The translations under genes and the position numbers were made by a program. The notes beneath the pieces were generated by a model that saw only the letters and a list, made by a program, of their open reading frames with translations, had not been told where the DNA came from and ran no database searches. Shown here piece by piece: positions 18,000-38,028 of a stretch of DNA of 64,000 bases. This stretch comes from an archaeon (GTDB taxonomy: Archaea; Nanobdellota; Nanobdellia; Woesearchaeales; GW2011-AR9): positions 1-64,000 of the forward strand of contig JABHQR010000020.1 in assembly GCA_018696395.1 (NCBI GenBank), written 5' to 3'. Each line of letters begins with the position of its first letter. Within the stretch, counting starts at the first letter, position 1.

Positions 18000-18127
18000 T
18001 GTGGGGGAAGGGATTTGAACCCCTGAACCTACTAAAGGACAGGATATCTCAAGTAATAATACTCAATTGAGTACTCAGACTTAATTTCTTAAGTCCTGCG
18101 CATTTGACCAAACTTTGCTACCCCCAC
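18000..18127 (-). tRNA. tRNA-Leu(UAA), type II, with 42-nt intron after position 37 (18046-18087); CCA not encoded
   Basis: Acceptor GTGGGGG/CCCCCAC, T-arm AGGGG-TTCAAAT-CCCTT, anticodon stem CAGGA/TCCTG, anticodon TAA, long variable arm; intron CTTGAG pairs with anticodon-loop CTTAAG. Confidence 0.92.
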
Positions 18128-32898: not shown

Positions 32899-33001
32899 AT
32901 CTTTAAGTTGACTTCACAGCATTATAAACTTTATTATTTCAAAAGGTGGAATTTCTAAATCATCGTCATACGTTTTTTCTGTATGAAAAAAAAAGGATCA
33001 G

Positions 33002-33262
33002 TTATTTTTTAGCAACGTATTTCATCCATAATTTTTTAAAAAATGGTAAAGATAAAGTTGAAAGCATGAATCCAGTTGTTGGAACAATAGAATTTATGAA
33101 AGGTTTTGGTAGTTGGGCAATATAAAAAAAAAGTACAATTGTTGCATAAGTTAATATTGCAATAATTATTTTCCTAGACCAACTTGTTTCCCAAGCTTTA
33201 TCATATTCTACTTTACTATTTCTTTGTTCAATTGCAATAAGTCTTTTTTCGATACCAACCAT
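33002..33262 (-). CDS. Small membrane protein (probable cassette ORF)
   Basis: 86 aa, 2 TM; lies between GTCATACGTTTTTTCTG (32965) and GTATAAC (33325). Confidence 0.6.
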   Translation of the reverse strand: MVGIEKRLIAIEQRNSKVEYDKAWETSWSRKIIIAILTYATIVLFFYIAQLPKPFINSIVPTTGFMLSTLSLPFFKKLWMKYVAKK

Positions 33263-33324
33263 ATTTATTTAAATATAAATTAGGGTTTATTAAATTTTCT
33301 CTTAAGTGGCTTTAAAAAAAATAA

Positions 33325-33352
33325 GTATAACATTAAGACCCCATTAGTTTCG
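33325..33352. repeat. Truncated attC-like site
   Basis: GTATAACATTAAGACCCCATTAGTTTCG: left arm resembles site B minus CGCGAT; right end TTAGTTTC is reciprocal to GAAACTAA of site A. Confidence 0.6.
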
Positions 33353-33499
33353 TTTTCTGCTACGAAGTCCGGAAAACTTGCGTTCACAGAGTTGTGTTTA
33401 AGCTCATATCAATCTGAAACGTAGCCGAGACATACTATCCAAAGAACAAAGGAAAGTTCAGGAATAAAGTATTGAAACAGAAAAACCCATAAAGTTTAA

Positions 33500-34105
33500 A
33501 TGACATCAAAGATTAATGGTAATACAATGAAGACAATAACTGCATTCAATAGGGATGATTTTAGAAGGTGGTTGGCAAAGAATCATGATAAAGAAGATAA
33601 GGTTTCTGTTGTAGTTTACAAAAAACATACCGGGAAGTCATCTCCATCTCACAGAGAATTGATGGAAGAGGCAATTTGTTTTGGTTGGATTGATACAATA
33701 CTCAAGAGATTAGATGAAGAAAGATATATAAGAACATTTTCTAGAAGGAATAAAAATAGTAAGTGGAGTGATAATACCCTGATGTATGGTAAACAATTGA
33801 TTAAAGAAAAAAAAATGACTGCTATTGGATTAAAGTTTTACAAAGAAGGATTAAAAAAGCCAACACATGATTTTGGCATACCAAAAAACCCTGATATGCC
33901 TATTGAGTTAAAGAAAGCATTGAATAAAAATAAAAAAGCTAAAGATAATTTTGAAAAGTACTCTGTTTCTCTCAAAAAGGTGTTTTATAGATGGATTTTA
34001 CGTGGGAAACGTGAAGAAACCAGAGCTAAGAGGATTAAGTTAACAGTTGAGAAAGCAAAAATTGGCAATAAGGATGTTTTTGGAACACAAAAAAAAAATG
34101 TTTAA
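33500..34105 (+). CDS. YdeI/OmpD-associated-family protein (cassette ORF)
   Basis: DDFRRWLAKNHDKEDKVSVVVYKKHTGKSSPSHRELMEEAICFGWIDTILKRLDEERYIRTFSRRNKNSKWSDNT. Confidence 0.85.
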   Translation: MTSKINGNTMKTITAFNRDDFRRWLAKNHDKEDKVSVVVYKKHTGKSSPSHRELMEEAICFGWIDTILKRLDEERYIRTFSRRNKNSKWSDNTLMYGKQLIKEKKMTAIGLKFYKEGLKKPTHDFGIPKNPDMPIELKKALNKNKKAKDNFEKYSVSLKKVFYRWILRGKREETRAKRIKLTVEKAKIGNKDVFGTQKKNV

Positions 34106-34158
34106 TTTACCCTCTTTTTGTTTCTTTTTTCTAAAAAGAAAATGGTGAAAATTTAATT

Positions 34159-34243
34159 GAAACTAACATCAGGATTATGAGAAGTTCGCGAAGCGAATTT
34201 GGGAAAATTCAGCAGGAATTTTCCTCATAATCCTTGTTATACG
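34159..34243. repeat. attC-like site A
   Basis: TAACA-tc-AGGATTATGAG ... CTCATAATCCT-TGTTA; inner hairpins TTCGC-GAA-GCGAA and AAAATTC-AGCAG-GAATTTT; 2-nt extrahelical bulge on left arm. Confidence 0.8.
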
Positions 34244-34295
34244 TTTTTTCTGCAAGAAAAAATCGCGAAGTGAAACGGAGCGACAGTATGACGCA
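34236..34295. repeat. Cassette leader repeat, copy 1 (60 nt, one mismatch to 36189-36248)
   Basis: GTTATACGTTTTTTCTGCAAGAAAAAATCGCGAAGTGAAACGGAGCGACAGTATGACGCA. Confidence 0.9.
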
Positions 34296-34304
34296 AGGGG
34301 CACA

Positions 34305-35066
34305 TTACATTCGTTTAAAATATTCAGATGAAACCCATTTACCAAAATTGTTAAGAATTGAGGTCGCACTCTTTCTATCTGGCGATTTACTTTCAGCCAT
34401 TTTCAAAACAGCATTTATTTGTTGCTTTTTTTCAGGAAAATATTTAGTGAAAATTTTTGTCATTTCATCAAGATCAGTAGTCCAGTAATTTTCATCTTCC
34501 ATCACGATGGAAAATGCAGTTCTGATAATCTTTTTCATTATTGATTTTATTTGAAGTTTAGCTTCTTCAGAATTTGCAGATTTTATTTTCTTTTTTGCTT
34601 CTGCAATATTTTTATCGACATCTGAATGCAAATTTCTGGCTAACTTTTTTGTTGGGCTAAACTTCATCTCTTTTTGAAAAAGATTATCTCCAAAAATTTT
34701 CACGCTTAGAATTGTGAGAAAAAATCTCCAACCGAATGCTTCTTTACCTCGTAAAACTTCATTTTTGTAAGTGATAGCAAAACCAACTTCCCTGAATACT
34801 TTTTGATATTTTTCCGAAAGTGAAGTTTCTAAATCTTTTAATTGAGCTTTCAATTTTGTGCTTGGTTTTGCTTTTAGAACTACCACTATATCTAAATCAG
34901 AGGTTGGAGATTTTGCTTTTCCTGTAGCAACACTCCCATATAAATAAATGCTGTGGATTTTATCAGAAAATTTCAGCAATTCTGATTTTACATCTTTAAC
35001 AATCGGATTATATTTTACTGAAACTTTTTTTAGTGCGACCTCTTTTTTAATGTAAATGGGTTTCAT
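34305..35066 (-). CDS. MNT-type nucleotidyltransferase domain protein (cassette ORF)
   Basis: YLYGSVATGKAKSPTSDLDIVVV = GSxxxGxxxxxSDxDxxV. Confidence 0.88.
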   Translation of the reverse strand: MKPIYIKKEVALKKVSVKYNPIVKDVKSELLKFSDKIHSIYLYGSVATGKAKSPTSDLDIVVVLKAKPSTKLKAQLKDLETSLSEKYQKVFREVGFAITYKNEVLRGKEAFGWRFFLTILSVKIFGDNLFQKEMKFSPTKKLARNLHSDVDKNIAEAKKKIKSANSEEAKLQIKSIMKKIIRTAFSIVMEDENYWTTDLDEMTKIFTKYFPEKKQQINAVLKMAESKSPDRKSATSILNNFGKWVSSEYFKRM

Positions 35067-35116
35067 ATTTTAAAAATAAACTTTGAAATATATAAATGTG
35101 CTCCTGAGTAATATTG

Positions 35117-35209
35117 CGTATAACATCGCGATTAAGAGAAGTGCGAACGTAGTGAGCATTTGGGGAAATTTTCTGCAAGAAAATTTACCTCTTAATCGAT
35201 GTTAAATAC
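35117..35209. repeat. attC-like site B
   Basis: TAACAT-cg-CGATTAAGAG ... CTCTTAATCG-ATGTTA; AAATTTTCT-GCA-AGAAAATTT inner hairpin; ends CGTATAAC / GTTAAATAC. Confidence 0.8.
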
Positions 35210-35289
35210 TTCCGATAGGAACGAGGAATAGTCTGCAAGACGGTTTTTTGCGAAGCAAAAAAATTCCGAAGAGTAAATTTGGAGCCCCG

Positions 35290-36093
35290 TTACAATCTTT
35301 CCTTTGATTGCAATAGATCTTTAATCCTGGATTCATCCCAACCAATATATTCTAATCCATAATATTTTGAGAGAAATTCTTTTTTCAAACCTATTGGACC
35401 ATATCCATTAAAATCATCTTCATTTTTTATTCCTTTTTCTTCTAAAATAAAATATCTCCATGCTTCCATATGTGCCCTTCTGGTGTTTGAATCAATTCCA
35501 TCTGAAATTGGAAGATTTGAAGGAGTGTTATATCTAAATAATCCATTATGATAAAATACTTCATGATTACCATCAAGTGTATCAATAGAAAAATCCAGAT
35601 CTTCATCTGAAGGAAAACTCGCTAATTCATCATATCCAGGATGTGAATGCATTTCAGCTTTGTATACTCCTGAATTTTTTATTGCATGTAAAACCTTTGG
35701 TAAGGAATCATGAATTCCTCTCAGATTAACATACCAAGAAGAATCGATTAATAATATATCTGTTTCTAAATTTCCTTTAGAAATTGGTAGTCTTTGTAAA
35801 GTTTGAAAATCTGATTCGTAAGGGGGTTTTTCCAACAGATAAGCACCCTCGGGTAAATCTTGATTTTCAACATATTCTTCTAAGGATCTGATTGTGGGAA
35901 AAATAGAGGGCAATTCTTTTAGATTTCCAACTACTGCTTGCTCTAATTCTTGCCAACTGCAACCTCCTCGCAAATGTTGCAAGAAAGGAACATCTTCAAA
36001 TCTTTCATATAATGATTTACTAGCCACGTTATTACTTATAAGGAGTAAATAAGTATATAAATCTATCGGTTTTGAAGCATTAATTCTCTTCAA
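35290..36093 (-). CDS. JAMM/MPN-like protein (cassette ORF)
   Basis: EMHSHPGYDELASFPSDEDL resembles HxHP...PSxxD. Confidence 0.65.
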   Translation of the reverse strand: MKRINASKPIDLYTYLLLISNNVASKSLYERFEDVPFLQHLRGGCSWQELEQAVVGNLKELPSIFPTIRSLEEYVENQDLPEGAYLLEKPPYESDFQTLQRLPISKGNLETDILLIDSSWYVNLRGIHDSLPKVLHAIKNSGVYKAEMHSHPGYDELASFPSDEDLDFSIDTLDGNHEVFYHNGLFRYNTPSNLPISDGIDSNTRRAHMEAWRYFILEEKGIKNEDDFNGYGPIGLKKEFLSKYYGLEYIGWDESRIKDLLQSKERL

Positions 36094-36110
36094 GGGGCTC
36101 CAAATTTATT

Positions 36111-36196
36111 GTATTTAACATCAGGATTATGAGAAGTTCGCGAAGCGAATTTGGGTAAAATCCTGCAAGGATTTTCCTCATAATCCTTGTTATACG
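36111..36196. repeat. attC-like site C
   Basis: GTATTTAAC...; 40 nt identical to site A (36116-36155 vs 34164-34203); AAAATCCT-GCA-AGGATTTT hairpin; ends GTTATACG. Confidence 0.82.
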
Positions 36197-36248
36197 TTTT
36201 TTCTGCAAGAAAAAATCGCGGAGTGAAACGGAGCGACAGTATGACGCA
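36189..36248. repeat. Cassette leader repeat, copy 2
   Basis: GTTATACGTTTTTTCTGCAAGAAAAAATCGCGGAGTGAAACGGAGCGACAGTATGACGCA. Confidence 0.9.
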
Positions 36249-36260
36249 GGAGCCAGCCCG

Positions 36261-36725
36261 TTATTTTCTAACTCTTACAATTACACCATTGTTAGCTTTT
36301 TGTAATTCTTTTGTAGAAATTTTTACAAGCGAATTTTCAGAACCGCCACCAGTGTAAACAATATCTTTTTCGATAACTCTTTGATCAATAAGAAATTTTG
36401 CATCATAACCAAATGAGGGGGTTCCACCACAAGGATATCCTGTTTTCTGCAAAATTTCATCAGGTGTGGCGGTTCGTGGTCTTTCAATATTCAAGGCTTT
36501 ACTAACTCGTGAAGTGCTTGCTCTATCTTCACCCTTGACAATAGCAACAATAAGATTTCCATTCGAATCAATCATGCAAATATTTTTTACAAAATCATCA
36601 GTATTTGCATTTACAGCTTTAGACGCATCTTCAACAGAATGACATGATTGATTGAAACTAAGATGTTCGCCTTGAATATTATTTTCTTGTAAAAATTTCT
36701 TTAATCTTTCTTCGTATTGATTCAT
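36261..36725 (-). CDS. YbaK/aminoacyl-tRNA deacylase-family protein (cassette ORF)
   Basis: VKNICMIDSNGNLIVAIVKGEDRASTSRVSKAL ... GYPCGGTPSFGY. Confidence 0.9.
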   Translation of the reverse strand: MNQYEERLKKFLQENNIQGEHLSFNQSCHSVEDASKAVNANTDDFVKNICMIDSNGNLIVAIVKGEDRASTSRVSKALNIERPRTATPDEILQKTGYPCGGTPSFGYDAKFLIDQRVIEKDIVYTGGGSENSLVKISTKELQKANNGVIVRVRK

Positions 36726-36788
36726 AGTATAAAAGAATTACAAATGTTATTTAAATGTGTTGTGTAGGGCTGGCTCCGAGTAATATTG

Positions 36789-36885
36789 CGTATAACATCG
36801 CGACTAAATGAAGTTTCTGAGCAAAGCAAAGAAATTTGGGAGAGCGAAGTGCAACGAGTGAACCATTTAGTCGCTGTTCTATACC
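36789..36885. repeat. attC-like site D
   Basis: CGTATAACA-tc-GCGACTAAATG ... CATTTAGTCGC-TGTTC; 26 nt upstream/left arm identical to site B (36778-36803 vs 35106-35131). Confidence 0.78.
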
Positions 36886-36956
36886 CCGAAACAGAATGAG
36901 TGAGTGAAACGAACATCATGAATTGAGAATGCAATGTGGTCAAGCGTTAGCGAAGA

Positions 36957-37113
36957 AGTTTTCTCGTAAATAAATGTGAACGAAGTGAACCAAAAATAAG
37001 TTTTTTAAAGACGAGAAAATTGTATGGAACTGTTTCTAGGCGAAGGTTGGAAACAGTTAGGTGAAAGGTCACAAGGGCTAATTCGAGAAAATCTTGTCAG
37101 TAGGGAGATTTTC
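36957..37113. promoter_or_regulatory. Non-coding region with three strong inverted repeats; candidate attI-like or regulatory region of the recombinase
   Basis: TTTTCTCGT/ACGAGAAAA (36959/37011), AACTGTTTC/GAAACAGTT (37028/37050), GAAAATCT/AGATTTTC (37087/37106). Confidence 0.5.
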
Positions 37114-37186
37114 CACCTGAAACAAACCCCCCCACTTACCCACTGGTCAAGTATACAGATTATTTATAAGTAAAAGCCCCACATAA

Positions 37187-37210
37187 CTACCTTCTGTAAA
37201 AAGGAGGTAG
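37187..37210 (+). promoter_or_regulatory. Hairpin overlapping the recombinase Shine-Dalgarno
   Basis: CTACCTTC ... GGAGGTAG flanking TGTAAAAA, immediately before ATG 37216. Confidence 0.5.
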
Positions 37211-37215
37211 AAAAA

Positions 37216-38028
37216 ATGTTTAAAACTTTAATTGAAGAATGTCAACTAAGAAATTATTCTAAAAGAACTAGTGAATCTTACCTTTACTTTAACAAAAAAT
37301 TCATCAAATTCTGTAACAAAAAAACTCAAGAAGTTAATTATAAAGATATAAGATCATTCTTACTACACTTAATTTCAAGAGGATATTCAAGTTCATACGT
37401 AAATCTTGCTCACAACTCAATTAATTTTTATTACACACAAATATGTAAAAGAAAGTTTGAAAAAATAAGTTTTCAAAAAAGAGAACAAAAAATTAAAGAA
37501 ATCTTAAGTAAAGAAGAAATTGTTAAACTGATAGAAGTTACAGATAATATTAAACATAAATTAATCATATCATTACTATATTCTAGCGGAATCAGAATCA
37601 GTGAATTAATCAAAATAAAATTGAATGATATTGACCTAAAAAATAAAACATTATTAGTTAAACAAGGTAAAGGTAAAAAAGATCGTTACACGATTATTTC
37701 ACAAAAAAATGTCACAGAGATTATAAATTATATTAGCAAAAAAAGACATACAAAAAACCAATATTTGTTTGATTCAAAACAAGGACATATTACTTCAAGA
37801 ACAGTACAAGAAATTTTAAAGATAGCTTCCAAAAAAGCTAAAATAGTAAAACAAGTAACACCACACAGGTTAAGGCACAGTTTTGCCACACACCTTAAAC
37901 AAAATAATACTAACATTTTTGATATTCAAAGGTTATTAGGACACAAAGATGTAAGAACTACCAAAGGATACATTAACAATAATCAAAACGATTGGACCAA
38001 ACTAATTAGAAGCCCCAGAGATTATTAA
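37216..38028 (+). CDS. Tyrosine recombinase (XerA/Xer-like), possible cassette integrase
   Basis: SGIRISEL (Arg), KQGKGKKDR (Lys), HRLRHSFATHL (HxxR), LLGHKDVRTTKGYI (His, Tyr); 270 aa. Confidence 0.95.
   Translation: MFKTLIEECQLRNYSKRTSESYLYFNKKFIKFCNKKTQEVNYKDIRSFLLHLISRGYSSSYVNLAHNSINFYYTQICKRKFEKISFQKREQKIKEILSKEEIVKLIEVTDNIKHKLIISLLYSSGIRISELIKIKLNDIDLKNKTLLVKQGKGKKDRYTIISQKNVTEIINYISKKRHTKNQYLFDSKQGHITSRTVQEILKIASKKAKIVKQVTPHRLRHSFATHLKQNNTNIFDIQRLLGHKDVRTTKGYINNNQNDWTKLIRSPRDY

Follow-up and report, generated by a model that had tools for sequence, protein, structure and literature searches.

The DNA analysed here (the window) covers the opening 64 kb of a contig of 117 kb from a 1.38-Mb genome assembled into 24 contigs and 98.9% complete. 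The same contig also encodes archaeal-type CDC48, ATP-dependent DNA ligase, and SRP54 GTPase, and from these genes, together with archaeal kin in genome searches, we judge the chromosome to be archaeal. At 33–38 kb, four imperfect palindromes are interleaved with single genes and adjoin a divergent tyrosine recombinase (Table 1). The open reading frames that a preliminary description had placed beside this recombinase were recovered as described, and Pfam searches backed its YdeI, NTP-transferase, YbaK, and recombinase assignments. The open reading frame strands confirmed that four of the five cassette genes are directed away from the recombinase. The JAMM-like frame had no match in the Pfam search, leaving its motif as the only basis for that label. 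The YdeI gene shares 87% and 82% nucleotide identity with genes at array loci L121 and L106, which belong to two other genomes and have surroundings that differ from those in the window.

Table 1. Features of the cassette locus, with positions given in the window.
Feature	Position	Strand	Sequence elements	Basis or remark
Degenerate start box, leftmost cassette-like segment	32965-32973	+	GTCATACGT	In register with site 3' ends (family D3)
86-aa protein, degenerate leftmost segment	33002-33262	-		ORF; no Pfam family
Degenerate or truncated junction	33323-33351	+	AAGTATAAC ... ATTAGTTTC	Second degenerate junction
YdeI/OmdA-family cassette gene	33500-34105	+		Pfam
attC-like site 1	34155-34244	+	Cores GAAACTAAC (34159-34167), GTTATACGT (34236-34244)
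Outer inverted repeat, NTP-transferase cassette	34297-35105		GGGGCACATT (34297-34306) / AATGTGCTCC (35096-35105)	Sequence and fold pairing
NTP-transferase (nucleotidyltransferase) cassette gene	34305-35066	-		Pfam
attC-like site 2	35112-35209	+	Right core GTTAAATAC (35201-35209)
Outer inverted repeat, JAMM-like cassette	35274-36108		TAAATTTGGAGCCCC (35274-35288) / GGGGCTCCAAATTTA (36094-36108)	Repeat test and fold pairing
JAMM-like cassette gene	35290-36093	-	HSHPGYDELASFPSDED	Motif read by eye only
attC-like site 3	36107-36197	+	Right core GTTATACGT (36189-36197)
Outer inverted repeat, YbaK cassette	36249-36777		GGAGCCAGCCC (36249-36259) / GGGCTGGCTCC (36767-36777)	Sequence and fold pairing
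YbaK/tRNA_edit (aminoacyl-tRNA editing domain) cassette gene	36261-36725	-		Pfam
attC-like site 4	36784-36884	+	Right core GTTCTATAC (36876-36884)	Closest to recombinase
attI-like site	37022-37058	+	Box GTATGGAAC, hairpin TGTTTCTAGGCGAAGGTTGGAAACA, GTT	Fold z -5.6
Conserved promoter motif	37141-37149	+	CACTGGTCA	Upstream of TATA-like TTTATAAG (37163-37170)
Tyrosine recombinase, 270 aa	37216-38028	+		Pfam; R-K-H-R-H-Y intact

Four of the palindromic sites reported previously are full imperfect palindromes, but the leftmost "site" at 32965 is a half-box only. Folding as single-stranded DNA, which had been proposed as a check, gave better folds than dinucleotide shuffles for three sites on either strand (z -4.6 to -7.5); the fourth (36784-36884) beat them only weakly (z about -2). 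The sites meet the attC criterion of an imperfect palindrome with extrahelical bases and a variable terminal structure. A covariance model built from the four found no fifth copy in the genome among the best 150 first-look candidates scored, a search that could miss weak copies. Copies dispersed singly, like a REP/MITE family, would have refuted the preliminary description; that search gave none, and all four sites lie in one array. An IMG/VR scan with one exact 23-mer, a weak test, returned nothing, and no Rfam family matched the palindromes, the sole Rfam match being a tRNA. This match covers 128 nt (18000-18127, minus strand) where ARAGORN called none, and is probably an intron-containing archaeal tRNA.

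Core boxes and outer repeats of the cassettes

In integrons, both complementary core boxes belong to one cassette, and for that reason they sit at two neighbouring sites of an array. We examined this rule in a comparison set of 43 loci with 120 sites, placing the boxes by alignment columns. A 9-bp inverted core, GTTN6 ... N6AAC, marks the two ends of each cassette; GTT is present in 112 of the 120 sites and AAC in 116. As full 7-mers, the integron consensus cores GTTRRRY and RYYYAAC occur in only 35 and 34 of the 120 sites (about 7.5 by chance), and the family core is GTTANNY. Across 77 adjacent pairs, the right box of one site matched the left box of the next at 5.16 of 6 variable bases, 49 pairs being perfect, compared with 2.74 for the two boxes of the same site, 2.83 for non-adjacent sites of one locus, and 2.70 between loci. 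The match is limited to exactly the 9 bp of GTTN6 and is at background level beyond them, and in a cruder first-pass box test none of 20000 permutations scored as high. At the three internal junctions of the window the boxes match at 8/9, 9/9, and 8/9 positions, and the right box of the degenerate junction at 33323-33351 is an exact complement (8/8 after the first base) of the next site's left box.

The integron criterion of a complementary core at both cassette ends, with exchange at G|TT, is thus met. Repeats that recombination at the box had not moved would not yield pairing between adjacent sites, which supports the cassette reading, and we take the rule as the signature of cassette exchange at G|TT in true integron-type arrays. 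That the palindromes are instead REP/MITE-like repeats, structured RNAs, or intergenic terminators might be suggested by their strong structure, intergenic position, and side hairpins. We consider this very improbable, given the lack of dispersed copies among the candidates scored, the lack of an Rfam family match, the break of homology at the box, and above all a 9-bp box that belongs to the cassette and not to the site. We regard the integron-like cassette logic as close to certain.

The stems covary: across 87 aligned sites, 97.7% of cells were paired and both sides had changed in 368 instances, whereas controls with slid partners gave no more than 62. This alignment was fitted to the structure, so the count leans towards it. 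All 87 sites have a 2-3 nt arm bulge, always on the same arm. Loci L113, L114, L126, L095, and L106 have junctions in which AAC and GTT are only a few to about 20 nt apart; these resemble near-loopless attC and were missed by the covariance model.

Beyond the core, cassettes carry an additional, cassette-specific outer inverted repeat with a mean length of 13 nt. One arm adjoins the right box; roughly 40-110 nt separate the left box from the other arm downstream of it. Repeats of at least 9 nt were found in 61 of 65 cassettes, compared with 14% when ends were swapped. Folds of the circle junction averaged -52.9 kcal/mol versus -38.7 for swapped ends and were lower in 61 of the 65. Because the complete structure would exist only in an excised circle, we infer that the circle, itself inferred, is the substrate. 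A class 1 integron control offered only two usable cassettes, so absence of the outer repeat from bacterial integrons is not established.

The adjoining recombinase and the attI-like site

Twenty-five site-linked recombinases all retain the catalytic residues R, K, H, R, H, and Y. The recombinase in the window passes the archaeal XerA model NF040815 (XerA_Arch; 223.4 bits, cut-off 220) and fails the integron integrase model TIGR02249 (175 versus 265 bits). TIGR02249 is unspecific at low E-values, with matches in each of the 14 control genomes, so we relied on its cut-off alone. In alignment with V. cholerae IntI4 (2a3v), residues 170-189 of the query span 178-239 of the chain and the insert is missing; in most linked recombinases an HxLRH motif follows GKG by 59-68 aa. 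The criterion of an IntI with its additional specific domain is therefore not met. An AlphaFold model (pLDDT 88, pTM 0.68) was closest to XerA and then to IntI4, with TM-scores of 0.5-0.6 and an uncertain interdomain angle. The extra region of IntI contacts the extrahelical base (PMC3053210); since that region is absent here, site recognition must differ from that of IntI. Site-linked recombinases are scattered over a few groups of the recombinase tree, and a single clade was rejected, the label requiring about 10 changes. At 18 loci of unlinked recombinases of the same family we found no convincing site.

Just upstream of the recombinase gene lies a distinct hairpin that the preliminary description did not list, with a box that complements the last attC core at 8/9 positions. 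The left box of such attI-like sites complements the last attC box in 21 of 25 loci, compared with 6.2% when boxes from other loci are used, so that the criterion of an attI beside the integrase gene is met in those 21. In every one of the 25 loci with an array as well as a recombinase, the recombinase gene is 3' of the sites and shares their strand. The first recombinase-array pairs had been picked partly after this pattern was noticed, and 40 further genomes were therefore added; 27 of 28 nearest pairs agreed in position and strand, and the exception keeps the strand.

These data bear on whether the array is a CALIN, an attC cluster mobilised in trans by a true IntI elsewhere, with the XerA-like neighbour incidental. 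CALINs make up the majority of archaeal integrons described to date (PMC9668308), and some arrays lack a nearby recombinase: none was seen in the fetched stretches of L102, L119, L120, L122, and L127, despite kilobases of downstream sequence. The fixed position and strand of the recombinase, the match of the attI-like box to the last attC, and the lack of any IntI above the curated cut-off in 148 relatives, 54 of which carry sites (E<=1e-3), make a CALIN unlikely in our view. The adjacent XerA-type enzyme likely drives the array, an inference, since recombination has not been shown.

The motif CACTGG[A/T]CA occurs upstream of 16 of the 25 linked recombinases, just before TATA-like boxes and sometimes in tandem (7-bp period) or inverted. 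We counted 27 copies in the 400 bp upstream of the 25 genes and 7 in the remaining 382 kb. The counts come from the loci in which the motif was noticed; upstream copies in L139, L149, and L154, fetched for another reason, lend support. The motif is a possible operator of the integrase gene, regulation being inferred.

The close relatives L103 and L105 share the hairpin and recombinase within a 4.7-kb stretch of 94% identity. Their homology breaks off at the AAC of the attI-like site, the point at which the cassette box starts. A comparison of relatives, as the preliminary description had called for, thus finds array content that differs between close relatives. Where similar palindromes recur between genomes, the right flank was kept in 8 of 28 cases and the left in none of 28, and three pairs with the same left flank carry different palindromes. 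Together with the L103/L105 break, these flanks point to the classical layout when the locus is read on the minus strand. An array reversed relative to the integrase, with each palindrome travelling with its left cassette, was set aside on the flank data and the attI-like site but is not fully excluded. Assignment of palindromes to neighbours remains provisional, resting on few cases (the 28 flank comparisons, three left-conserved pairs, and one platform pair), and an enzyme acting exactly like IntI would make the side of the bulge agree with the opposite assignment.

That the array is active or recently active is an inference, supported by intact boxes, catalytic residues, and turnover among relatives; no recombination was observed. 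It is possible, if less probable, that the array is a fossil, built by such a system but now immobile in this lineage. Its left end is degenerate, the segment adjoining the attI-like site has no gene, and three of the four junctions match at 8/9 rather than 9/9 positions, but the recombinase, the stems, and most boxes are intact, and content differs among near relatives. Because of the degenerate left end and the geneless segment, we leave present activity in this genome open.

Distribution of the sites across genomes

With the 87-site model and a threshold of E<=1e-6, 127 of 380 genomes from across the phylum, about a third, had sites, which were often clustered. They also occurred in 11 of 101 Spirochaetota genomes. 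In one of these, G440 (L164 and L168, on a 2.0-Mb contig), the sites obey the box rule, and downstream of them, on the same strand, is a recombinase that lacks the IntI insert; no IntI above the cut-off was found in ten site-bearing Spirochaetota genomes. A CPR contig labelled Parcubacteria (L040:1-16768) has an array, an attI-like platform, and a recombinase, and it also encodes bacterial RF-1 and the competence protein ComEC. No site was matched in four genomes of other bacteria or in four class 1 integron regions. The Spirochaetota and CPR sites are what would favour bacterial contamination of the archaeal bin. Archaeal-type genes, however, flank the array on the same contig, and with sites in about a third of the sampled genomes of the phylum we give contamination almost no credence.

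Among the cassette open reading frames in L094-L133 are matches to an EcoRI-type methylase, a type II restriction enzyme, GmrSD, Fic, and AIPR, and to several PADLOC models. Judging from such predicted products, defence-like genes are common among the cargo.

Comparison with known systems and proposed mechanism

Like a bacterial chromosomal integron (IntI, attI, and attC), the archaeal arrays have a divergent integrase, an adjacent attI-like site, and single-gene cassettes cut at G|TT. Further shared features are R''/R' complementarity within the cassette and imperfect palindromes that fold and have extrahelical bases on one of their arms. They differ in that the integrase lacks the IntI-specific domain, the attI-like site is itself a hairpin, and the bulge is on the arm next to the cut, whereas the bacterial bulge is on the other arm (read from L174). 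The core is GTTANNY rather than GTTRRRY, and cassettes have the extra outer repeat (against a bacterial control of two cassettes only). Cassette genes, which often carry their own TATA-like box, do not meet the one-orientation rule, 37 pointing away from and 28 towards the recombinase.

Ghaly et al. 2022 reported archaeal integrons in 75 of 6718 MAGs, mostly CALINs, and six IntIs with the IntI-specific domain (PMC9668308). Our observations agree with theirs in finding attC clusters in archaeal MAGs, including Nanoarchaeota, and differ in the share of sampled genomes bearing sites and the link to a non-IntI recombinase (dataset overlap is unchecked). XerA, described as a chromosome-dimer resolvase (PMC8371274), is the nearest solved structure (PDB 5hxy, 4a8e), but the copies examined here sit at cassette arrays. 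The literature we searched gave no account of arrays that rely on a non-IntI recombinase, with subscription papers and preprints outside our scope. The outer repeat completing the fold in the excised circle, the bulge on the opposite arm, and the CACTGG[A/T]CA promoter motif are new anatomy.

We hold with good confidence, though recombination has not been shown, that the locus is a cassette array of integron type in which a XerA-like recombinase takes the place of IntI. The preliminary description had proposed an integron-like platform with sites and an integrase outside the bacterial model; the box rule, the clustering of sites, and the fixed recombinase position support this, as do the attI-like site, the array differences in close relatives, and the missing IntI insert. 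In the minus-strand direction the locus shows the classical layout, with the divergent recombinase followed by the attI-like hairpin directly upstream of it and then by repeated units of TTN6, gene, N6AAC, palindrome, and G. Cassettes would recombine at G|TT, presumably through the recombinase, with the palindrome folding into a single-strand hairpin as the inferred substrate. An excised circle would unite the cassette ends in one long stem comprising the outer repeat, the 9-bp core, the bulge, and the inner stem, and reinsertion beside the recombinase would probably use this stem as its substrate. We lean, less firmly, towards a widespread second kind of integron, found in DPANN and also in CPR and Spirochaetota, with a XerA-type enzyme lacking the IntI domain and a site completed by its outer stem only in the circle.

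The current view is that integrons need a special IntI domain to read extrahelical bases. If our reading is true, a plain Xer-type enzyme working with cassette logic would alter both the definition of integrons and the way they are looked for, and would open a window on their origin from Xer recombinases. It would also account for many of the archaeal "integrase-less" attC clusters, and would mean that a large share of small-genome archaea own a dedicated gene-capture platform.
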